Origin: Sialis fuliginosa
Lineage: Eukaryota > Arthropoda > Insecta > Megaloptera > Sialidae
Length of the DNA: 64,000 bases
NCBI GenBank assembly: GCA_961205875.1
Contig: OY540814.1
Coordinates: forward strand, 27,658,151 to 27,722,150
Reading direction: 5' to 3'
In this document: piece after piece, positions 5,223 to 59,806 of the stretch
Layout: every line of letters starts with the position of its first letter
Position numbering within the stretch: the stretch's first letter is position 1
The notes under the pieces: generated by a model
What the model was told of the DNA's origin: nothing
Seen by the model: only the letters and a program-made list of their open reading frames with translations
Databases searched by the model: none
Program-made: the position numbers and the translations under genes

Positions 5223-6639
5223 GTAAGTGTAATTATCAATTAAATTAATGCCATTATTAACATTTGGTTTGATTCAATTAATTCACTTTGCTTTTGTATG
5301 AAAGAACCTGGAACTTGGCGAAAGAGATTTCTTAATACTGTTAAAATGCGAGTGTAAAAGAAAATTAACTTTTTTATAAGAAAAAACATATTAAATATTT
5401 GTATGAAAATTTAGGGGTTTGAAACATTGTAAAAAAATATAATTCAAATATCGATTATTTAAAAAATAAAAATTTTTTTCATAAGAATTACAAAATAGAA
5501 GCCCACCAATTCCAAAAAAATATCTTTAAGTGACCAAGACTGGCCCCAGTACCTTATACATTATTTAATTAATATTTAAATATATTCAAATCAATTTAAG
5601 ATTTGTTGTATTTTAATGTGTCAAAATCACAACTAATACATTTAAAAATTCATACAACGAAAAAGAAAGCTTTGCATTTTTAACTTGGTTTCGTATTTAA
5701 TGTGATTGATGTATTATGTATATACTTCAAAGTCACAGCCGCCTCAAAGGAGCTAAAGCTTAATATTAAAAAGGGCGTTGACAGTGAAAAGATAAAAAAT
5801 GAACGTTATTTACTCGAATTTAAATTTTGACTTTATTCGAAAAGCTGTGAATAGATTTTATAAAGAATTCACTGCACTTCCTGTTAGATAACAACTTTAA
5901 ATTTTAACCTCATAAATTATTAATAATTATCTATAATTCATTTCAAGTGTTTTTTATTTAAATTAAACATGTTAACGCTACCAAACCCGATTTTCATTTT
6001 TTATGTTAGTAGTTAAATTTTTAAAAGAAAAATTCGTAATGTTTTATTTTGAACATCCTGTATGTGTTTTGTATAATAATACAATCATAATAATAAAAAT
6101 ACAATATAAACTAACAAAGAAACAAAATATATGTTTTTCCTGTTATATATATATGTTATATCTTATACATACTTATTTATTTATTTTATTTTGACCACAA
6201 AACTCATTCTTCATCAGACTTCCTCAATTTATCGATTCCTTGTGTATCTTATAAGGATACTGAATATTTTAAATTTCTATTTACTTTTTATAAAGCGGAG
6301 GTTCGTTGCATGAAATAAAAAATATATAAATACGAAAGAATATGATGACCATCTCGAGGTTATTTGGTTTCAGTTCAACAATTTCTTCGATAGAAGTTTC
6401 AAATATATATTACGTACATTTTATTCAAAATGTAATTTGTTCTGGATTTCATATGAAACATTTACTGTCACATTTTACGATGTAAAAGATAAAGATATTT
6501 TCTTGTATCGATTTATTGAACTAGTTACTTTTCAATGAACTATAAAAGGATGGTGATGATTTATTTTTCTTCTTATTTTCTTATTTTTAAGTTGATATTT
6601 CTGTGACAAATTCAAGGTGGTGGGTGAAATATAACCCAA
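5223..6639. other. AT-rich stretch with a MITE end fragment
   Basis: Mostly featureless A/T sequence. At about 5500-5556, 'CCAAGACTGGCCCCAGTACC' is one terminus of the AAGGTACTGGCACCAG MITE family (fuller copy at 31912-32112). The partner terminus is not visible. Confidence 0.5.
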
Positions 6640-8180: not shown

Positions 8181-8477
8181 TATTAAATAATTGTGCAGAA
8201 TCAAAAGTTCTACAATTAAGTCCGCGACACCATATGTCTAACTTTTATATTTAAGCCACAATTACTGCTTTTATGTTATTAAGAAAACATAAAATATTTG
8301 GGTTCTGTTTACGTGGAATTATGACATGCAAAACATTAATACTTATCGAAATAAATGATTTCATCGTCATAAGTACTTAATGTAGATATAATTTGCCATT
8401 TACAGCATCCAATTTGGTCGTATAGGTTAGAAAATATCGAAATATATGTTATACGGAAAAATATTATTCGTGCGATG

Positions 8478-8485
8478 GTGACCCG
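8478..8485. repeat. Left 8-bp target site duplication of the 4.8-kb hAT element
   Basis: GTGACCCG immediately precedes CAGAGCCGGCC at 8486 and is repeated exactly at 13304-13311 just after the right terminus. Eight base pairs is the target duplication length of the hAT superfamily. Confidence 0.85.
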
Positions 8486-8625
8486 CAGAGCCGGCCTTTG
8501 CGATTCTGGCGCCCCAGGCGAGATTTTTTTTGACGCCCCCCCCCCCCCCCTCCACCGCCACAGTGACGATCATTAAAAATTATCCGCACAAAAAAAAAAA
8601 AAAAGCGTGAGAAAATTATCTTGCA
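8486..8625 (+). repeat. Left-terminal block of the hAT element (duplicated at 12612)
   Basis: About 140 bp: CAGAGCCGGCC, then 'GGCGCCCCAGGCGAGA', a C run of about 15, 'CCGCCACAGTGACGATC', an A run and 'GAGAAAATTATCTTG'. The same series recurs at 12612-12745, differing mainly in the homopolymer lengths. The GC-rich motif GGCGCCCCAGGCG is echoed at the right end and in the element at 59228-59806. Confidence 0.85.
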
Positions 8626-9379
8626 GGTGACTGTACATTGTGATTCATATTATTTATTTGATTTTTTTGTTTCGGTTCTGATATTTATGTAATGGTTTTT
8701 ATTTGTTAACGTATGTTTACATCATGCACTTGTCGAAAGAGCAATAAAACTAAGTTTTGTTAACGAATGTACATATCCTCATTGTTTATAGTTAATAATA
8801 ATTATATAATTTATAAAAATATAATTTTAATAATAAAAAAAAGGTAATATTATTCTCTCCATTATATAACAAGTGATTTTTTTTTAACGTAATAACTGAA
8901 ATCAGATGTTTACTCTTGTAAATTTTTGAATTAACGAATTATTTTTGAATTAAGAAAAAATGTTTTAGATAAAAAATGTCGAGTATTTTATTATCTATAA
9001 TTTATTCCCTATACATTTTTTTCCAACATTTATAATTTAACCAGAAAGAAATTTTTTATGTAATTATTTAGATTCACCTACACTGTTCACTATCAGTATT
9101 ACGTATAAGAAAGTCCCATGGTACCTATGGCAAACAAGCACACTGTTTAATCTCTGTACTACGTATAAGAAAGTCCCATGACACTTATGGCAGATATTTC
9201 TCCTCTGTTATGAACCATTTGAATTATAATAAAATTGCATGACGTTAACATTTGTTTACAAAGTCAAAAAAATGAAATAAACTTTTATTTTCAAAAAAAG
9301 ATTTTTTTTACTATTTTTCCCTTAAATCTAGCCTACTTCTGCTTCAAAAAATTAATATTTCGTTAAAATAAAAAAAATC
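8626..9379. other. AT-rich interior of the hAT element
   Basis: Noncoding filler between the left terminus and the satellite. It contains two direct copies of an approximately 60-bp motif at 9079-9130 and 9139-9190, both with 'TACGTATAAGAAAGTCCCAT' followed by 'CTATGGCA' or 'TTATGGCA'. Confidence 0.6.
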
Positions 9380-9396
9380 ATGCAATTAAGGGTTAA
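9380..9396 (+). repeat. Left half of 17-bp inverted repeat bounding the satellite
   Basis: ATGCAATTAAGGGTTAA here is the exact reverse complement of 12529-12545. The TTAA at its inner end is also the first TTAA of the satellite array, so the halves joined at one shared TTAA would form a 30-bp perfect palindrome. Confidence 0.8.
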
Positions 9397-12300
9397 AGAT
9401 AATAGTGTAAGCTACATTTAAAAAAAAAACTGGAGTCTCCTCGATCGCGCCAAGTTGAGATATTAACTATTCAATTTACTTATTTGTTAGCGTATGAGTT
9501 TTAATTTGTTTTTTTAGTTTTAACTTGTTTTAAAAAAGGGAAGGAGCACGCGAAGGTCTTTAAGTGCGTGATGCTCTTAAAGATAATAGTGTAAGCTACA
9601 TTTTAAAAAAAAACTGGAGTCTCTTCGATCGCGCCAAGCTGAGATATTAACTATTCAATTTACTTCTTTGTTAGCGTATGAGTTTTAATTTGTTTTTTTA
9701 GTTTTAACTTGTTTTTAAAAAGGGAAGGAGCACGCGAAGGTCTTTAAGTGCGTGATGCTCTTAAAGATAATAGTGTAAGCTACATTTTAAAAAAAAACTG
9801 GAGTCTCTTCGATCGCGCCAAGCTGAGATATTAACTATTCAATTTACTTCTTTGTTAGCGTATGAGTTTTAATTTGTTTTTTTAGTTTTAACTTGTTTTT
9901 AAAAAGGGAAGGAGCACGCGAAGGTCTTTAAGTGCGTGATGCTCTTAAAGATAATAGTGTAAGCTACATTTTAAAAAAAAACTGGAGTCTCTTCGATCGC
10001 GCCAAGCTGAGATATTAACTATTCAATTTACTTCTTTGTTAGCGTATGAGTTTTAATTTGTTTTTTTAGTTTTAACTTGTTTTTAAAAAGGGAAGGAGCA
10101 CGCGAAGGTCTTTAAGTGCATGATGCTCTTAAAGATAATAGTGTAAGCTACATTTAAAAAAAAAACTGGAGTCTCTTCGATCGCGCCAAGCTGAGATATT
10201 AACTATTCAATTTACTTCTTTGTTAGCGTATGATTTTTAATTTGTTTTTTTAGTTTTAACTTGTTTTTAAAAAGGGAAGGAGCACGCGAAGGTCTTTAAG
10301 TGCATGATGCTCTTAAAGATAATAGTGTAAGCTACATTTAAAAAAAAAACTGGAGTCTCTTCGATCGCGCCAAGCTGAGATATTAACTATTCAATTTACT
10401 TCTTTGTTAGCGTATGAGTTTTAATTTGTTTTTTTAGTTTTAACTTGTTTTTAAAAAGGGAAGGAGCACGCGAAGGTCTTTAAGTGCGTGATGCTCTTAA
10501 AGATAATAGTGTAAGCTACATTTTAAAAAAAACTGGAGTCTCTTCGATCGCGCCAAGCTGAGATATTAACTATTCAATTTACTTCTTTGTTAGCGTATGA
10601 GTTTTAATTTGTTTTTTTAGTTTTAACTTGTTTTTAAAAAGGGAAGGAGCACGCGAAGGTCTTTAAGTGCATGATGCTCTTAAAGATAATAGTGTAAGCT
10701 ACATTTTAAAAAAAAACTGGAGTCTCTTCGATCGCGCCAAGCTGAGATATTAACTATTCAATTTACTTCTTTGTTAGCGTATGATTTTTAATTTGTTTTT
10801 TTAGTTTTAACTTGTTTTTAAAAAGGGAAGGAGCACGCGAAGGTCTTTAAGTGCGTGATGCTCTTAAAGATAATAGTGTAAGCTACATTTTAAAAAAAAA
10901 ACTGGAGTCTCTTCGATCGCGCCAAGCTGAGATATTAACTATTCAATTTACTTCTTTGTTAGTGTATGAGTTTTAATTTGTTTTTTTAGTTTTAACTTGT
11001 TTTTAAAAAGGGAAGGAGCACGCGAAGGTCTTTAAGTGCGTGATGCTCTTAAAGATAATAGTGTAAGCTACATTTAAAAAAAAAAAACTGGAGTCTTTTC
11101 GATCGCGCCAAGCTGAGATATTAACTATTCAATTTACTTCTTTGTTAGCGTATGAGTTTTAATTTGTTTTTTTTTTTAGTTTTAACTTGTTTTTAAAAAA
11201 GGGAAGGAGCACGCGAAGGTCTTTAAGTGCGTGATGCTCTTAAAGATAATAGTGTAAGCTACATTTAAAAAAAAACTGGAGTCTCCTCGATCGCACCAAG
11301 CTGAGATATTAACTATTCAATTTACTTCTTTGTTAGCGTATGATTTTTAATTTGTTTTTTTAGTTTTAACTTGTTTTTAAAAAGGGAAGGAGCACGCGAA
11401 GGTCTTTAAGTGCGTGATGCTCTTAAAGATAATAGTGTAAGCTACATTTTAAAAAAAAACTGGAGTCTCTTCGATCGCGCCAAGCTGAGATATTAACTAT
11501 TCAATTTACTTCTTTGTTAGCGTATGATTTTTAATTTGTTTTTTTAGTTTTAACTTGTTTTTAAAAAGGGAAGGAGCACGCGAAGGTCTTTAAGTGCGTG
11601 ATGCTCTTAAAGATAATAGTGTAAGCTACATTTTAAAAAAAAACTGGAGTCTCTTCGATCGCGCCAAGCTGAGATATTAACTATTCAATTTACTTCTTTG
11701 TTAGCGTATGAGTTTTATTTTGTTTTTTTAGTTTTAACTTGTTTTTAAAAAGGGAAGGAGCACGCGAAGGTCTTTAAGTGCATGATGCTCTTAAAGATAA
11801 TAGTGTAAGCTACATTTTAAAAAAAAACTGGAGTCTCTTCGATCGCGCCAAGCTGAGATATTAACTATTCAATTTACTTCTTTGTTAGCGTATGAGTTTT
11901 AATTTGTTTTTTTAGTTTTAACTTGTTTTTAAAAAGGGAAGGAGCACGCGAAGGTCTTTAAGTGCATGATGCTCTTAAAGATAATAGTGTAAGCTACATT
12001 TAAAAAAAAAACTGGAGTCTCTTCGATCGCGCCAAGCTGAGATATTAACTATTCAATTTACTTCTTTGTTAGTGTATGAGTTTTAATTTGTTTTTTTAGT
12101 TTTAACTTGTTTTTAAAAAGGGAAGGAGCACGCGAAGGTCTTTAAGTGCGTGATGCTCTTAAAGATAATAGTGTAAGCTACATTTAAAAAAAAAACTGGA
12201 GTCTCTTCGATCGCGCCAAGCTGAGATATTAACTATTCAATTTACTTCTTTGTTAGCGTATGAGTTTTAATTTGTTTTTTTTTAGTTTTAACTTGTTTTT

Positions 12301-12532
12301 AAAAAGGGAAGGAGCACGCGAAGGTCTTTAAGTGCGTGATGCTCTTAAAGATAATAGTGTAAGCTACATTTAAAAAAAAAACTGGAGTCTCCTCGATCGC
12401 ACCAAGCTGAGATATTAACTATTCAATTTACTTCTTTGTTAGCGTATGAGTTTTTATTTGTTTTTTTAGTTTTAACTTGTTTTTAAAAAGGGAAGTAGCA
12501 CGCGAAGGTCTTTAAGTGCGTGATGCTCTTAA
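9393..12532 (+). repeat. Satellite array: 17 tandem copies of a ~184-bp unit
   Basis: Units start at TTAA positions 9393, 9577, 9761, 9945, 10129, 10313, 10497, 10680, 10864, 11049, 11240, 11423, 11607, 11791, 11975, 12159 and 12345, ending at 12532. Most are 184 bp, and the 191-bp unit has longer A and T runs. Each unit begins TTAAAGATAATAGTGTAAGC, contains 'TCGATCGCGCCAAGCTGAG' and ends 'GTGCGTGATGCTC'. Inner units are nearly identical; the first and last differ most, as expected from unequal exchange. A GTGCGTG/GTGCATG change varies among units. No open frame persists through a unit. Diverged relatives lie at 47965-48215 and 59520-59740. Confidence 0.95.
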
Positions 12533-12545
12533 CCCTTAATTGCAT
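12529..12545 (-). repeat. Right half of 17-bp inverted repeat bounding the satellite
   Basis: Exact reverse complement of 9380-9396, beginning with the final TTAA of the array. See the left half for the implied palindrome. Confidence 0.8.
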
Positions 12546-12611
12546 CTTGTTAACATTCGTGAACAATGTTTTCAGAGGTATCTATTAGCAAAAATGTACA
12601 ATATTTTTTAC

Positions 12612-12745
12612 CAGAGCCGGCCTTTGCGATTCTGGCGCCCCAGGCGAGATTTTTTTTGACGCCCCCCCCCCTTTCCACCGCCACAGTGACGATCATTAAA
12701 AATTATCCGCACAAAAAAAAAAACGTGAGAAAATTATCTTGTTAT
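12612..12745 (+). repeat. Internal second copy of the hAT left-terminal block
   Basis: Repeats 8486-8625 closely, from CAGAGCCGGCC to 'GAGAAAATTATCTTG', with shorter C and A runs. The 8 bases before it (TTTTTTAC) do not match those after the right end, so this copy is not the boundary of the last transposition event. The 60-residue open frame over this block is chance. Confidence 0.8.
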
Positions 12746-12815
12746 TAATTCATTAGTGTAATATAATAATATAATATAACATATAATTGATAAATAATAT
12801 ATAATATAACTAAAA

Positions 12816-13079
12816 TTATATAAAAGATTTCTTCCTGGCTTTCATATCTGCAAAATTATCGATTGCTGTCTCAAAATTGAGGTTTGCTACAACCTTATTT
12901 TCAATTGAAAGAATAGCCAAATTATTCAACCTATCTTCTATCATAGCCGATTGCAAATAAGTTTTTATGAATTATTTTAATTTACTAAAACTTCTTTCAC
13001 CACTAGCTACACTAACCGGAATTGTTACAAGAATTAGCAAAGCCACCCACAGATTTGGCACTGTGCTTTTCAAGTTTAG
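12816..13079 (-). pseudogene. hAT transposase C-terminal dimerisation domain, decayed
   Basis: Read on the minus strand, the sequence gives 'VPNLWVALLILVTIPVSVA', then 'SGERSFSKLK', an internal TAA, then 'IKTYLQSAMIEDRLNNLAIL' and 'SIENKVVANLNFETAIDNF', ending at a TAA (12816-12818). The PVSVASGERSFSKLK pattern followed by an ERL/DRL-NLAILSIE motif is the hallmark of the hAT C-terminal dimerisation domain, as in ZMYM1-like insect transposase relatives. The upstream RNase H-like domain is missing, and the stop sits near an extra codon within the domain, so no active protein is made. It reads from the right terminus inward and is the only coding remnant inside the 4.8-kb element. Confidence 0.85.
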
Positions 13080-13229
13080 TAAAAAAATGTTTAATAAATA
13101 ATTTATTTTTGATATTAAACATTTTATTAAGTAAAATGAATTATTTTGCAGAAAAAATCAAAACTATTATTCAAAAAATATATATAGCTTAAATTTGGCG
13201 CCCTAGAACAGAACATAGAAAAAAAGTTT

Positions 13230-13303
13230 AAAATAATTGGCGCCCCCACGAAATTAGCGCCCCAGGCTGTCGCCTGGGTCGCCTGGCCGTTCGGCCGGCC
13301 CTG
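13230..13303 (-). repeat. Right-terminal block of the hAT element
   Basis: GC-rich end containing 'GCGCCCCAGGCTGTCGCCTG' and finishing GGCCGGCCCTG at 13303. The terminal 11 bases are the inverted counterpart of the left end, with one difference. Internal 'CCAGGC...GCCTGG' segments can form hairpins, typical of hAT subterminal regions. Confidence 0.8.
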
Positions 13304-13311
13304 GTGACCCG
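13304..13311. repeat. Right 8-bp target site duplication
   Basis: GTGACCCG, identical to 8478-8485. Confidence 0.85.
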
Positions 13312-14216
13312 TGTATGGCGATGGAACGTACCAACTAGAAGCGCAGGGCAGAGGGAAGGGAACAGGCCGGTATTCTTTTGATTGTCAATTGTTTATTTTG
13401 TTTTCAATAATTAACTTTTAAATTTAAATAGAACAAAAATTATTTATACTTTTTGTTCTGATTCGTTTTTGTTAGGTAGGTAATTGAAGTGTTATTTGGT
13501 TTTTATTACATTAATAACTAATCGTGTTTGTAATTAATTCAACTATATATTTTTTAAATCCTAAACAATAATTCCGTAGTCCACGCGAGCGATGCCGCGT
13601 GGGCCCAGCTAGTATATTATACAATAACAAATTATGAAACTCATTTGAATGAAAATAGAACTGTTTTTCGGTTTTTGGTTCAGTTCCGGTTCGAAGCCCT
13701 GCTTTTTTTAATATATATTTTACTGGACATCGAGTTATATCCATTTTTTGATGCTAAAAAATTTAAAATCCATTTATATAAACTACCTCATCCAGAGCTT
13801 CAAAAAAATGCAAATCCTCGCTAATTAAAAATGAAATAGATAATTCAAAATTTTTATTCATGTTCTGAAATAATCCCTAATTCAGATCGATAACAAAAAT
13901 CGCCTTTTATAACTTATAAATTAAATATGCACCCTAATCTTTTAATTTATTTATGTTAATAGATACTGAAAGTATTATTAACCAATCATAAAAAACGTTA
14001 TTTTTCTAAATGTGACATAAATAACGAAGGATTATTCAGAAATATTCAAATCAACTACACAAAAATAGAAATTACCATGTATCACAAAATGTATTCATTC
14101 AAAATTGTATTGTATAAATTTTATGTAAATAAAAAACAACAATTTTAGTTGGGGAAAATCTGTACAAAAAACGACTTTATCGGTTGTTTTAATCAAACAA
14201 ATTACAGTGTACTTAC
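13312..14216. other. Noncoding stretch with short interspersed repeat tail
   Basis: At 13565-13618, read on the minus strand, 'TATACTAGCTGGGCCCACGC' followed by 'GGCATCGCTCGCGTGGA' is a typical insect interspersed-repeat tail (the 'ACTAGCTG-CCCGCG' type, known to me from many arthropod genomes). The 77-residue minus-strand frame at 13511-13744 lies over it and is not a gene. The rest is AT-rich without signal. Confidence 0.5.
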
Positions 14217-16617: not shown

Positions 16618-17082
16618 CAGTATATTAAGAATAAGGATAATGTACATTTACTTAATATGACCGTATAAGAAAGTAAAACATACTCCATTTCATTACGAAA
16701 GAAAATCATTAGCATTTACCATTCAGCCACTATTATGTATTTTTATGTTAAGGAGATTCATTTCAATATAACAGTTTACAAAGCATTTTAACTACTTACT
16801 TTTCATTCGTAAAATAACAAAGAAAATAATACGGATAATATTACAAAAGAATTCGTTCCAGCTCATTTAAATATATTTTATAATGTGCATTCATTTTTTC
16901 ATTTACTAATTTACCTATCGTCTGATTTCAAATTATATTTCCGGTAATATTAAATTTAAAATATTACAGTAGAATTACTAAATAATATATTCTTGTTAAG
17001 GATTTGAAAGGTGAATTAGAACACGAAGTATTAATAATCTGATGTACATTTATTTAGTACTTAAGTACATTAATACTTAAAT
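16618..17082. other. AT-rich noncoding stretch
   Basis: No gene or bounded repeat recognised. Confidence 0.6.
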
Positions 17083-17590
17083 AAAACGGCCAAGTGCGTG
17101 TTGGGCACGCACATCATAGGTTTCCGTAGTCATTACGATTTATAAACAAGAGTTATTTCAACGAACATTCTGATAACGACATTTGAATGTAAATATATCG
17201 TGACTGAAGGGTTAAAATCGAAAGGTCATATAACATTTTTTGTTGCATTTTAGAAGACCTATCTAAAGACACCCCACTTAATGGATTACGTGAATTTTTT
17301 TTAATGGAAGTGTTAATTGGGTGTATATTGTGACATGATATTGTCAGAAATCATGGCGTGCAAATCTTGTCAGAAAGAACGTGACATGCTAATCTTGTCA
17401 GAAAGAACGGAACATGCTAATCCTGTCAGAAAGAACGTGACATGCTAATCCTGTCAGAAAGAACGTGACATGCTAATCCTGTCAGAAAGAACGTGACATG
17501 CAATCCTGTCAGAAAGAACGTGGCATGCTAATCCTGTCAGAAAGAACGTGACATGCTAATCCTGTCAGAAAGAACGTGACATGCAATCTA
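17083..17590 (+). repeat. Interspersed repeat with 28-bp minisatellite, copy 1
   Basis: The head 'AAAACGGCCAAGTGCGTGTT' plus 'GGGCACGCACAT' is followed by about 240 bp that match 21840-22060, including 'CTATCTAAAGACACCCCACT'. Then about nine copies of a 28-bp unit follow (17343-17590), each containing GTCAGAAAGAACGTGACATG. The head recalls a GGCCAAGTGCG-type repeat I remember from insect, especially moth, genomes; that link is unverified. No protein frame runs through it. Confidence 0.85.
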
Positions 17591-21640: not shown

Positions 21641-21839
21641 AAACGCCAAATACTACTTTTATTTATATGTACATATATACATACGTATTTTACCCTCTCT
21701 TTAGCCATCTGATTGTTGTACTGGAAAAAAAATAAAGGTCGATTTCGTAATCTTGTATCTGAGTTGTATATTTTGTTGATGTTTGATTGCATTTTTATTA
21801 ACTAAGGGAGGTTGTGATTAGGGTTATGTACCTCAAAAT

Positions 21840-22200
21840 AAATAAAACGGCCAAGTGCGTGTTGGGCACGCACATAATAGGTTTCCGATTTATAAACAAG
21901 AGTTATTTCAACGGACGCTCTGATAACGGCATTTAAATGCAAATATATCGTGACTGAAAGGTTAAAATCAAAATGTCATATAACATTTTTTATTGCATTT
22001 TAGGAGACCTATCTAAAGACACCCCACTTAATGGATTAAGTGAAATTTTTTGCAAATCTTGTCAGAAAGAACGTGACATGCTAATCCTATCGGAAAGAAC
22101 GTAACATGCTAATCCTGTCAGAAAGAACGTGACATGCTAATCCTGTCAGAAAGAACGTGACATGCTAAACCTGTCAGAAAGAACGTGACATGCTAAAATT
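21840..22200 (+). repeat. Interspersed repeat with 28-bp minisatellite, copy 2
   Basis: Same head (AAAACGGCCAAGTGCGTGTT), middle and minisatellite as 17083-17590, but only about five 28-bp units (22055-22195) and a small deletion in the head. Copy-number difference at otherwise matching flanks shows the array length is unstable. Confidence 0.85.
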
Positions 22201-28337: not shown

Positions 28338-28735
28338 CACGTTCTTTTTGACAGAATTAACAAAATTTACATATCACATTCTTTCTTGCAAGATTAGCAT
28401 GTCACGTTCTTTCTGACAGGATTAGCATGTCACGTTCTTTCTTGCAAGATTAGAATGTCACGTTCTTTCTGACAGGATTGGCATGTCACGTTCTTTCTGG
28501 CAGGATTGGCATGTCACGTTCTTTCTGACAGGATTAGCATGTCACGTTCTTTCTGACAGGATTAGCATGTTCCGTTCTTTCTGACAAGATTAGCATGTCA
28601 CGTTCTTTCTGACATGATTTGCATGTCACGATCTCTGACAATATCAACATGTATTCCATAGACTGAAAAGTATATTCAAAAAAAATTTCACTTAATCCAT
28701 TAAATGGGGTGTCTTTAGATAGGTCCAAAAAACTC
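28338..28735 (-). repeat. Interspersed repeat with 28-bp minisatellite, copy 3 (inverted)
   Basis: Ten to eleven 28-bp units (28338-28632) in the opposite orientation, containing CATGTCACGTTCTTTCTGAC, are followed by 28690-28725, which complements the 'CTATCTAAAGACACCCCACT' block of the other copies. The conserved head is missing. Some units carry 'TTGCAAG' for 'TGACAGG'. Confidence 0.8.
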
Positions 28736-44159: not shown

Positions 44160-44665
44160 TCTTATACTTTTGTATATGAAATATACAATAGTAGAAGTAA
44201 GTATAGTGAAGCCGATTTTTTTCGAAATCCGGATTTTGATAGAATTATCTATTTTGAGCTTCCCTGAATCCATTCTGACTATTTTCGCCATGATGTCTGT
44301 GTGTCTGTCTGTCTGTCTGTCTGTGTGTCCGTCTATCGGTCTGTCTGTCTGGAAGCGCTGTAACCCAAATACGACAAATCGTAGAAGGGTGAAATTTTAT
44401 ATTTAAGATTAATTTTTGTCTGGGAAAAAAACGTCCTATTTTTGAAAAGGATCTTTCAACCGGATACGGATGTTTATCTACGTCGACTTTGAATTTTTTG
44501 AATTACTTTGAAACAGTAAAAAAATCGTAGGTAATATCAATATCTATAATTTATGTTCTATTCATTTTTTCGTAAAAACGAATTTTTGAACAAATATTTT
44601 TTTATTATAATTCAAATGGTTCATAACAGAATGGGACAGAATCTCAATTTGTTTTATTGTAGCAC
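44160..44665 (-). repeat. Dispersed repeat family A, copy 2
   Basis: Inverted relative to 3590-3925 and parallel to 56625-57070. Contains 'CTTTTGTATATGAAATATAC', a (CTGT)n tract (44300-44350), 'CGGATACGGATGTTTATCTA', and the tail 'TTTTTCGTAAAAACGAATTT' shared with copy 3. The 97-residue plus frame is made of the microsatellite and repeat. Confidence 0.75.
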
Positions 44666-47964: not shown

Positions 47965-48215
47965 ACATTGTATTTGTTAATTTAGTTTATCAATTTATCA
48001 AATTAAATTTGTTTATAATAGGGGAAAGGGGTCGCGACGGTCTTAGGGTATTTATTATTCTTGAAGTGAATGGTGTAAGCTATATTTAAAAAAAAGTTTG
48101 ATTCTGTAGGATCGCGACAAGCTGAGATATTCATTATTCAACTTATTTGTTAATTTATCAAATTTAATTTGTTAATAATAAGGGAAAGAGGTCGAGACGG
48201 TCTTAGGGCACAAAT
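47965..48215 (+). repeat. Diverged relative of the 184-bp satellite, ~1.5 units
   Basis: Shares with the array the order 'TGGTGTAAGCTATATTTAAA' / 'GATCGCGACAAGCTGAGATA' / 'TTATTCAACTTATTTGTTA' / 'AAGGGAAAGAGGTCGAGACG' / 'GTCTTAGGG'. It resembles the units in 59520-59740 more than the main array. No hAT termini were seen around it, so it is probably a remnant. Confidence 0.8.
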
Positions 48216-56624: not shown

Positions 56625-57070
56625 TTTTACTTTCTTATACCTTGTATATGAAATATATTTTTTTTGAAATCCGGATTTTGATGGAATTATCCATTTTAAC
56701 CTTCCCTGAATCCATTCTGACTATTTTCGCCATGATGTCTGTCTGTCTGTCTGTCTGTCTGTAAGCGCTGTAAATCAAATACGACAAATCGTAGAAGGAT
56801 ACAAAATTTTATATTTAAGATTAATTTTTGTCTAGAAAGAAAACGTCCTATTTTTGAAAACAATCTTTCAACCGGATACGGATGTTTACCTACGTCGATT
56901 TTTAAATTTTTCGAATTACTTTGAAACAGTGCGAAATAGAGAAAAATGGTCAAGTTAAAAATTGTAGGTAGGTATATCAATATCTATAATTTATGTTCTA
57001 TTCATTTTTTCGTAAAAACGAATTTTTGAAAAAAATTTTATTATAATTCAAATGGTTCATAACAGAGGAG
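56625..57070 (-). repeat. Dispersed repeat family A, copy 3
   Basis: Parallel to 44160-44665 with a (TCTG)n tract at 56736-56762, 'CGGATACGGATGTTTACCTA' and the tail 'TTTTTCGTAAAAACGAATTT'. It retains 'GAAATAGAGAAAAATGG', present also in 3590-3925 but missing at 44.5 kb. Confidence 0.75.
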
Positions 57071-58619
57071 AAATATCTGCCATGAGTGTCATGGGACTTT
57101 CTTATACATAATTTTTCATACGATATTTTTCACTTAAAATCACAGTGGTGGAAACAGAAAGAGCAAGGGGGCTGCCTCTCCCTGCCCCCTTCCCACGGGA
57201 ATACAATATATGGATGTCTACTTCTTTTCTTCCCCCCCCCCACCCACCAGACTTTTGTGTATTCAGAAGTACTGTAATTTGTATAAGCTAAAAAAATCTT
57301 CACAAATTTTAAATTTTTGGTACTTGATCTTTTACGTCTAAAAAATATCTGGCTAAGCCACTGTAAAATCTGATCCCTTAATCAAAAATAATGAATAGCA
57401 CTTAACAAACTTTTAAAATATATAATTTTTTCTGAAAACAACTGTTCAAAATAAAAAAATGTAATTTTTTTCGAACGCCCGGTATATTTCCATCAGTTCA
57501 ATGTAATATAAAATACAATACAAAAAGTAATTTTGTGTTCAACTATAAACGAATTTTTGATTGTCACTATGACATTTCCATTTATTTGCAATTACATTTA
57601 TACATATGTATATGCCTACTAGATATACATATACATATATGTATATGTGTATACATATATACAATAGTTAACATTTCTATAAATGTCAGCATTTGTGTTT
57701 TAGGTAAAACATGGATGGAATATATTCTATACCTACTTGAAATAGATTTCATAATAGCAACCCAAATTGTGCTTTGCATAGAAATTTTTGTTAACTATTT
57801 GATTTTGCTAATAGGAGGGTAGGATCTTTGTAAAATCTTACGAATCCTTAACTGGGAAATGTGGAAGGGAGAGGGGGAGGTCAAAGTAATTCTGACACAA
57901 GTATCTTCTTTTGAACTAAATATTTTTAAATATACGCCAAAACACTCACAGGTTTCATGACGCATTTTTTACGTCACGCCTATGTAAACACTCCTTGTCA
58001 ACAATAATAAATCCTTGTTTCATCACTAACATTTCTCGGTTTTAGTTTTGGTAACACAAAACTGAGTAAATTGATAATTTAAAACCACAAAATAATTTAT
58101 GAACAGTGCAGATATTAATGAAATAAAAATGATGTTTACTTAGCTGTGACGTCATCTACTCTGACTGGTGTTTTATCTAACATAAAAATAAATACATTTT
58201 TTAGAATCTTTTTAACGTACATATTTCATTATTTAAAATCATAATTTCAGTGATACTTTCTTACTCGCATCATGCCTATCACTTAACCGATTTCAATGCG
58301 GTTTTCACCAAAAGTTAGATCATTTTTCTGAGCAGTATCGTGACTATTAATATTTTATGATTTAACATCAAAAGATTTTAAAAAATAACTACTGAACGGT
58401 TTTTCACTAATGGATAGGTAAATTTTAGGTGTATAATATTTGAATATTTTGTGTAAATTTCATGAAGTTATATCGTGTGTTGTGGGCATGCTGGGTGGGC
58501 ATATTCAATTGAATTAATATCCCCGGGTAACACCGGGTCCAATGCGCTAATTAGCTATAACAATAATATTACAAATACTTCGCGATCCTGAAGAAACTAT
58601 TATCTCTAATTAATTATCT
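57071..58619. other. Noncoding stretch with microsatellite and repeat fragments
   Basis: GC-richer 'GCCTCTCCCTGCCCCCTTCC' and a C run near 57170-57240; an ATAC/TATG palindromic tract at 57600-57665; 'CACTTAACCGATTTCAATGC' near 58280 and 'CCGGGTAACACCGGGTCC' near 58523, parts of a short insect repeat. No gene recognised. Confidence 0.45.
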
Positions 58620-59227: not shown

Positions 59228-59806
59228 CAGTACCGGCTTTAGGGAGGGGGGGGGGGGGCGAACCAGGGCGACCGCCTGGGGCGCCAGGCCAGGTGGGACG
59301 GTGCATAATGAAGTATAAGTCACTTTTTTGGTTCAAATCAGTGTACAGGTTGTAATTTTTTTTATCTTTAAATTTTTTGTCGATCAGTTAAACCCGATTA
59401 AGCAAAAAATATAGCTAAATATAAACAATGTTAATTTGTAAAAAAAAAAAAACGATTATTTGATAGCTGCTAACTAACAAATACTTATTCAGCAACCCAG
59501 AAAAGGTATTAACTGAGATACTAACTAATCAACTTATTTGTTAATTTATCAATTTTTATTTGTTCATAATAGGGGAAGGAGGTCTCGACGGTCTTAGGGC
59601 ATTCGATAGTCTTAAAGTTAATGATGTAAGCTATATTTAAAAAAAAAGTTTGAGTCTGTAGGATCGCGCCAAGCTGAGATATGAATTATTCAACTTATTT
59701 GTTAATTTATCAATTTTAATTGACATTTTCGGTGATTTTTTAACATTTTTTTTGGGCAAAAAATAAATCTCGCCCAGGGCGCCAGATTTGCCAAGGCCGG
59801 CACTGT
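59228..59806. mobile_element. Small hAT element related to the one at 8486, with ~2 satellite-like units
   Basis: CAGTACCGGCTTTAGGGAGG on the left and the inverted 'GCCAAGGCCGGCACTG' on the right bracket 579 bp. Flanks TTTTTACT (59220-59227) and TTTTCACT (59807-59814) match in 7 of 8 bases. Subterminal 'GCCTGGGGCGCCAGG' and 'CGCCCAGGGCGCCAGA' resemble the GGCGCCCCAGGCG blocks of 8486-13303. 59520-59740 contains about two diverged copies of the 184-bp repeat ('GATCGCGCCAAGCTGAGATA'). No coding capacity. Confidence 0.85.

Follow-up and report, generated by a model that had tools for sequence, protein, structure and literature searches.

A probable hAT macrotransposon with a satellite array as cargo in the genome of Sialis fuliginosa

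How satellite DNA comes to lie at many unlinked sites is an old question, and the usual answers are circular DNA and repeats internal to transposons. A 64,000-nucleotide stretch of the Sialis fuliginosa genome (assembly GCA_961205875.1, contig OY540814.1, positions 27,658,151 to 27,722,150, forward strand), referred to here as the window, raises this question at a single locus, where a long array of 184-bp units lies inside a mobile element (8486 to 13303). An earlier note on the window had interpreted the element as a complete hAT transposon that carries and disperses the satellite. We found that it is indeed a hAT-type transposed unit with this role, but not a complete hAT transposon, as it is a composite whose left-hand member has lost its body and right end. 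The best explanation, and in our view a highly probable one, is a hAT macrotransposon that captured a block of satellite.

The main features of the locus agree with that note (Table 1). The inverted terminal motif CAGRGCCGGCC occurs in three exact copies, at 8486 and 12612 on the forward strand and at 13293-13303 on the reverse strand; with up to one mismatch allowed, the window holds four matches against 0.05 expected, the fourth being 59795-59805 (reverse strand, one mismatch). The outer ends are exact short terminal inverted repeats that start with CAG, as in hAT elements (CAGAGCCGGCC at 8486 and GGCCGGCCCTG ending at 13303). The flanking 8-bp duplication GTGACCCG is exact and occurs nowhere else in the window, although the pair is weak when taken alone, with at least two matches in 3 of 100 shuffles. 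Tandem Repeats Finder (TRF) gave an array with a period of 184 bp, 17.0 copies and 97% matches, and a BLAST search with a single unit also returned 17 copies, 16 at full length and the first without one base. The decayed hAT dimerisation domain was recognised as PF05699, while the adjoining open stretch (12819-12971, reverse strand) gave no hAT match. The second left end (12612-12741) is 92.8% alike to the first (8486-8623) over 138 columns. The note had taken it as a hint at how the element was assembled, which was right but understated: it is not a stray copy but starts a complete non-autonomous hAT element (mini-hAT, 12612-13303), and the whole consists of two transposons together with a split TTAA-target element.

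The site of the insertion was examined with the 36-bp joined flank containing a single GTGACCCG. With up to three mismatches, it matched 149 places (70 + 79; reversed control 0), and 93 of the 100 matches listed were exact. The empty sites anticipated by the note thus exist, as members of a repeat family in the same genome rather than as the same locus in other individuals. Therefore, the composite landed in a member of another repeat family, and the duplication is real. The target of the window insertion (8467-8485 / 13304-13328) is itself a repeat.

The genome searched comprises 392 Mb in 20 contigs, of which the window is a part. A 52-bp pattern of the left end, with up to three mismatches, was found at 204 places (98 + 106; reversed control 0), so that the left terminus is common elsewhere, where the note would have given up its interpretation had the terminal pair been absent. 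Among the 100 matches listed, 91 were exact and 11 same-strand pairs were 3.0 to 6.4 kb apart. We took 20 stretches of 10 kb in list order, not as a random draw, from contigs C1 and C2 with one from C3. Six contained full composites read end to end (L031, L032, L033, L046, L048 and L049), three contained shortened derivatives (L035, L043 and L045), and another three contained an inner mini-hAT with an array upstream, the outer left end being unread (L034, L042 and L044). The remaining eight were mini-hATs without an array (L036 to L041, L047 and L050). Of these, L050 alone belongs to the young type, with 97-100% similarity across its parts. Seven of these eight solo copies have 8-bp duplications, no right end being found for L037. 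Three of the seven (L036, L038 and L047) have the same flanks and the same duplication, GGCATGTG, and are therefore probably inside copies of one larger repeat.

All six full composites have the same form, in which two mini-hATs of about 700 bp, each with both ends, stand in direct orientation on either side of an inner segment. They have the make-up of macrotransposons in the usual sense, with two elements present, their outer ends used and the intervening DNA carried along. The outer 8-bp duplications were exact in all 21 array-bearing copies with both outer ends read, and all 21 were different, the chance of an exact duplication being about 5e-5 per site. The array-bearing sample numbered 24, with the right end outside the fetched piece in three; the 21 consist of 9/9 fetched copies with both outer ends, the window, 7 of 10 short-piece places (chosen by the left end and the inner junction both being listed) and 4/4 further derivatives.

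The inner junctions carry a different mark. In the copies with both inner junctions intact (L031, L032 and L048), both read TTTTTTAC. The T-run of the left inner junction, 6 to 11 long, is present in 8 of 9 composites and derivatives and lost in L043. At the right inner junction, an intact end is preceded by TTTTTTAC (L031, L032, L034, L042, L044, L048 and the window) and a tip-less end by TTTTTTA (L033, L046 and L049); L035, L043 and L045 have this junction deleted. Since the inner flanks have TTTTTTAC in common, a single mini-hAT once inserted at TTTTTTAC, and the outer ends of two copies were used together at a later stage. Twelve columns of the mini-hAT, several of them beside homopolymer runs, served as diagnostic sites, and variants in the outer left half are common to L031 and L032.

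Empty sites reveal what the inner segment was before it was divided. The pattern across a single TTTTTTAC had three matches in the genome, each of them exact, against 0 in the control. In L051 and L053, satellite units lie on both sides of an unbroken TTAA-target element of 1052-1053 bp, an arrangement that had been set down as a hypothesis before the search. In the third, L052, the start of the TTAA element lies outside satellite and is cut short by other DNA. The unbroken element has 13-bp inverted ends, CCCTTAATTGCAT, with one mismatch in the right end of L051. The TTAA target is on both sides in L051; L053 has TTTA on the left and TTAA on the other side. In the composites this element is split, with its distal part before the array and its proximal part after it, and TTAA stands at the proximal junction in 10/10 copies shown. 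The satellite unit contains GATGCTC-TTAA-AGATAATAG and thus supplies the TTAA target. L042 represents the filled site: its array is followed by the proximal part, the mini-hAT and the beginning of the distal part, which is truncated by other DNA. The inverted ATGCAATTAAGGG pair around the array had been considered as the ends of an array-holding element, and was rejected on finding that in L051 and L053 it forms the two ends of one element with the satellite outside.

Transposons of the piggyBac type duplicate a TTAA target, and hAT elements make 8-bp duplications. Judged by its ends and target, the inner segment is a TTAA-target, piggyBac-like element inserted into the satellite and now split around the array. 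It resembles miniature inverted-repeat transposable elements (MITEs) of the piggyBac type in its duplicated TTAA, its ends starting with CCC and its 13-bp inverted ends. The window also contains two copies of a dispersed (TGTC)n repeat in mixed orientation (44200-44630 and 56700-57112), which match the TTAA element at 97% over 77 bp (57034-57110) and exactly over 31 bp (44600-44630). Within the TTAA element itself, a direct repeat with a 60-bp period and 1.9 copies lies at 9080-9192.

The commonest composites lack an inner tip. We found the proximal end (start) of the TTAA element at 179 places, the intact inner-left-end junction at 44 and the tip-less junction at 110 (99 exact among 100 matches listed), making the tip-less form 2.5 times as common as the intact one. 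What is missing is the last base of the target copy together with 8 bases from the start of the inner hAT end, a total of 9 bp reading CCAGAGCCG; a loss of 10 bp, CCAGAGCCGG, was considered and does not fit the sequences. Because the inner tip is missing at 110 places and intact at 44, the composite was probably first locked as a single unit and then amplified. It is plausible from these copy numbers that losing the inner tip leaves the outer ends alone to pair. At C12:14905531-14910323, one strand holds three tip-less junctions at intervals of 2650 and 2102 bp, which are probably tandem composites.

Deletion has produced further forms. In one derivative, the array runs directly into the final 156 bp or so of the element; this junction occurs at 8 places, and the 7 read have 7 different exact duplications. 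The window copy has a deletion of its own, in which the left-hand mini-hAT kept 138 bp and lost its body and right end along with about 220 bp of the next segment. The junction was found once in the genome, in the window itself, so the deletion is private and does not mark a spreading subfamily. The window copy is a member of the unlocked class that was later hit by this private deletion.

Table 1. Coordinates of the composite element and of related features in the window
Feature	Position	Strand	Basis or remark
Left target-site duplication GTGACCCG	8478-8485	+	Single-copy form across joined flanks at 149 places
Outer left end, first 138 bp of left-hand mini-hAT, rest deleted	8486-8623	+	
Distal part of TTAA-target (piggyBac-like) non-autonomous element, ends ATGCAATTAAGGG	8632-9392	+	Homology to unbroken element in L051 and L053
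Array of 17 x 184-bp satellite units, TTAA at both edges (unit's own GATGCTC-TTAA-AGATAATAG)	9393-12532	+	TRF, BLAST
Proximal part of TTAA-target element, CCCTTAATTGCAT... to TTTTTTAC (12604-12611, internal hAT target site)	12533-12611	+	
Complete right-hand mini-hAT, 692 bp: left end, decayed body, right end GGCCGGCCCTG	12612-13303	+	
Decayed hAT C-terminal dimerisation region (PF05699)	12975-13157	-	E 8.5e-6
Right target-site duplication GTGACCCG	13304-13311	+	
Dispersed diverged copy of satellite unit, no hAT ends recognised alongside by eye	47986-48210	+	
Older hAT MITE (CAGTGCCGGCC ... GCCGGTACTG) with about 1.3 copies of a diverged satellite unit	59228-59805	-	

The arrays themselves bear traces of having been copied whole. 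Splitting 13 arrays by a boundary motif gave 168 units, which differ by 1.17% within arrays and 1.28% between arrays. When units were compared between copies by position, first units differed from first units by 1.2%, last from last by 2.0% and first from last by 2.6%; here the window's second unit stands in for its first, which the splitter missed, and three partly read arrays were left out of the first-unit comparison and three derivatives out of the last-unit comparison. Therefore, the copying of arrays included their edges, and there has been little homogenisation at individual loci. In the L032 array, an 11-unit block recurs with the same order of variants, so arrays also change in length; copies read whole have 7 to 25 units. 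Across the genome, a 51-bp piece of the unit, with up to three mismatches, occurs at 5417 places, about 1 Mb of satellite if each match represents one unit. Head-to-tail arrays of similar units with many genome copies are what is meant by satellite DNA, and the 184-bp repeat has both properties. On C1 as far as 6.15 Mb (the span of the 100 exact matches listed) there are 10 array clusters, 9 of them at a listed hAT or TTAA-element end, so the unit is not confined to places outside such elements, the other outcome that the note had held to be fatal.

Four steps of the proposed macrotransposon history can be read in these sequences. A TTAA-target, piggyBac-like MITE entered a 184-bp satellite array at a unit's own TTAA, and a 700-bp mini-hAT entered this MITE at TTTTTTAC. 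Pieces that start with the left end of one mini-hAT, finish with the right end of a second and enclose an array occupy many sites as single insertions with 8-bp duplications of their own, and the form without 9 bp at the inner left end is the commonest. Between these stages, we propose that unequal exchange after the mini-hAT insertion put two mini-hATs into one array, and that the outer ends were paired by hAT transposase acting in trans. A composite without its inner tip would favour outer-end pairing and so be locked, while the arrays may grow and shrink by unequal exchange.

Could the same structures have arisen without transposition of the array? Satellite circles bearing one mini-hAT might have recombined into resident solo mini-hATs, leaving a mini-hAT, an array and a mini-hAT between old duplications. 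The spread of satellites by circular DNA has been proposed in the literature, and recombination of this kind would leave full composites with outer duplications and an inner TTTTTTAC just like those observed. It fails to account for the deletion derivative, which has no second mini-hAT to recombine with and yet shows one junction at 8 loci, with different duplications at the 7 read. Because recombination of circles into resident solos would not produce it, this derivative is the strongest evidence for transposition of the array-bearing piece itself. Young solos are also rare in the sample, the 20 loci yielding 1 (L050) and 9 array-bearing copies with both sides read, and the variants common to the outer left halves of L031 and L032 point the same way, though weakly, being near homopolymer runs. 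We therefore consider such circles improbable.

The other alternatives are less probable still. Seen by itself, the window looks like a single hAT in which an internal repeat expanded in place, with the second left end a stray internal duplication, and transposons with internal satellites are known (PMC4079207, accessible part). Its relatives, however, have two complete mini-hATs and a split TTAA element around the array, and L031, L032 and L048 refute this very unlikely explanation. Misassembly, to which tandem arrays are generally prone, could in principle join repeats falsely, and we give it slightly less credit again: the units are distinguishable, array lengths vary from 7 to 25 units, and the duplications match in every copy read on both sides. 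Least credible of all is the independent insertion of two mini-hATs flanking a satellite block. It would accord with the completeness of both members, but the outer flanks form one duplication and the inner flanks another, common one, and the arrangement recurs at many sites; the duplication pattern refutes it.

Some observations weigh against the macrotransposon explanation. Mobility was read from sequence, and transposase is represented only by the decayed PF05699 remnant, no search for an autonomous hAT relative having been made. None of the stretches read contained a donor locus in which two mini-hATs share a satellite array. L051 and L053 have satellite without a mini-hAT, their arrays being read in part only, and one of the C1 clusters (C1:1574598-1577231) lies at no listed hAT or TTAA-element end. 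The diagnostic sites are few and untidy, and the right-hand member of L033 is unlike the L046/L049 type despite their common 9-bp loss. As for locking, it is deduced from copy numbers, and unlocked composites also have clean outer duplications; moreover, the counts of 179, 44, 110 and 3 (the empty sites) come from separate pattern searches whose nesting is not assured, with about 22 starts unclassed.

A second hAT element in the window bears on where the satellite came from. This older MITE has flanks TTTTTACT and TTTTCACT, 7/8 alike, and its first 46 bp are 84.8% identical to the mini-hAT end. Its repeat unit has a period of about 160 bp and is 76-80% like the satellite. A second full-length copy in L045 is 88.7% alike and has the exact duplication AATTCAAT. 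The old-type unit occurs at 1931 places genome-wide, and the end of the older MITE (52 bp of the window copy, up to three mismatches) at only 4, which gives no ground for placing the majority of old-type units in this MITE; a cluster of them in L045 (about 375-989) has no hAT ends visible beside it. The satellite may fairly be inferred to have started as an internal repeat of such an older hAT, but events could also have run the other way, with the old MITE acquiring a fragment of a still older satellite. As a fuller history, we somewhat favour one in which a satellite born in an older hAT expanded, was hit by the TTAA element and then by a younger hAT, and was captured as a macrotransposon, loss of an inner end turning the composite into a single self-contained transposon whose lineage became the main route by which the satellite spread.

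Elsewhere in the window, a 28-bp minisatellite (TGCTAATCCTGTCAGAAAGAACGTGACA) forms three arrays, at 17354-17588, 22051-22196 and 28370-28634, the last reversed. Matches between these arrays extend somewhat past their edges, for example 17061-17476 with 21824-22196 at 81% and 17256-17589 with 28725-28391 at 89%, so that the minisatellite, too, may be carried by a dispersed element.

We compared the composite with known systems as described in the accessible parts of the sources cited. In maize Ac/Ds macrotransposons, the outer ends of two nearby hAT elements pair and the DNA between them moves as one piece (PMC9910405; PMC4270019), just as the outer ends of two hATs appear to have moved the intervening DNA here; their excision leaves a modified 8-bp duplication, and they can increase in number (PMC9910405). 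The maize work followed alleles with enhancer and gene DNA inside, whereas the cargo here is a satellite, composite junctions occur at 154 places (110 + 44), and one inner end is lost in the commonest form. Tetris / TIR-220 of Drosophila virilis is likewise a DNA transposon carrying tandem repeats, of about 220 bp, and a source of satellite-like arrays (PMC4079207), but those repeats are part of a foldback terminal repeat, not cargo between two hATs with a split TTAA element around it. The MITE-borne satellites miDNA4 (Xenopus tropicalis) and Xstir also show a satellite motif dispersed by a non-autonomous DNA transposon (PMC9659126), in their case by single MITEs with an internal repeat rather than a composite of two elements. 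No hAT macrotransposon is named in the accessible part of PMC9659126, and the term hAT is absent from that of PMC8042265, on moth satellites. A hAT macrotransposon with satellite cargo was not found in the literature searched, in which subscription papers were largely beyond reach, leaving absence unproven. Ac-type macrotransposons and transposon-borne satellites are thus known already; what appears to be new is their combination as a hAT macrotransposon with satellite cargo.

Taken together, besides circular DNA and transposon-internal repeats, this genome offers a third route to dispersed satellites that can be read step by step, in which two neighbouring hATs capture a satellite block and the whole transposes. 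With its ordered forms (empty, filled, composite, tip-less and shortened), this route can be tested, and the loss of 9 bp at the inner end points to a concrete means by which a composite may become a new transposon.

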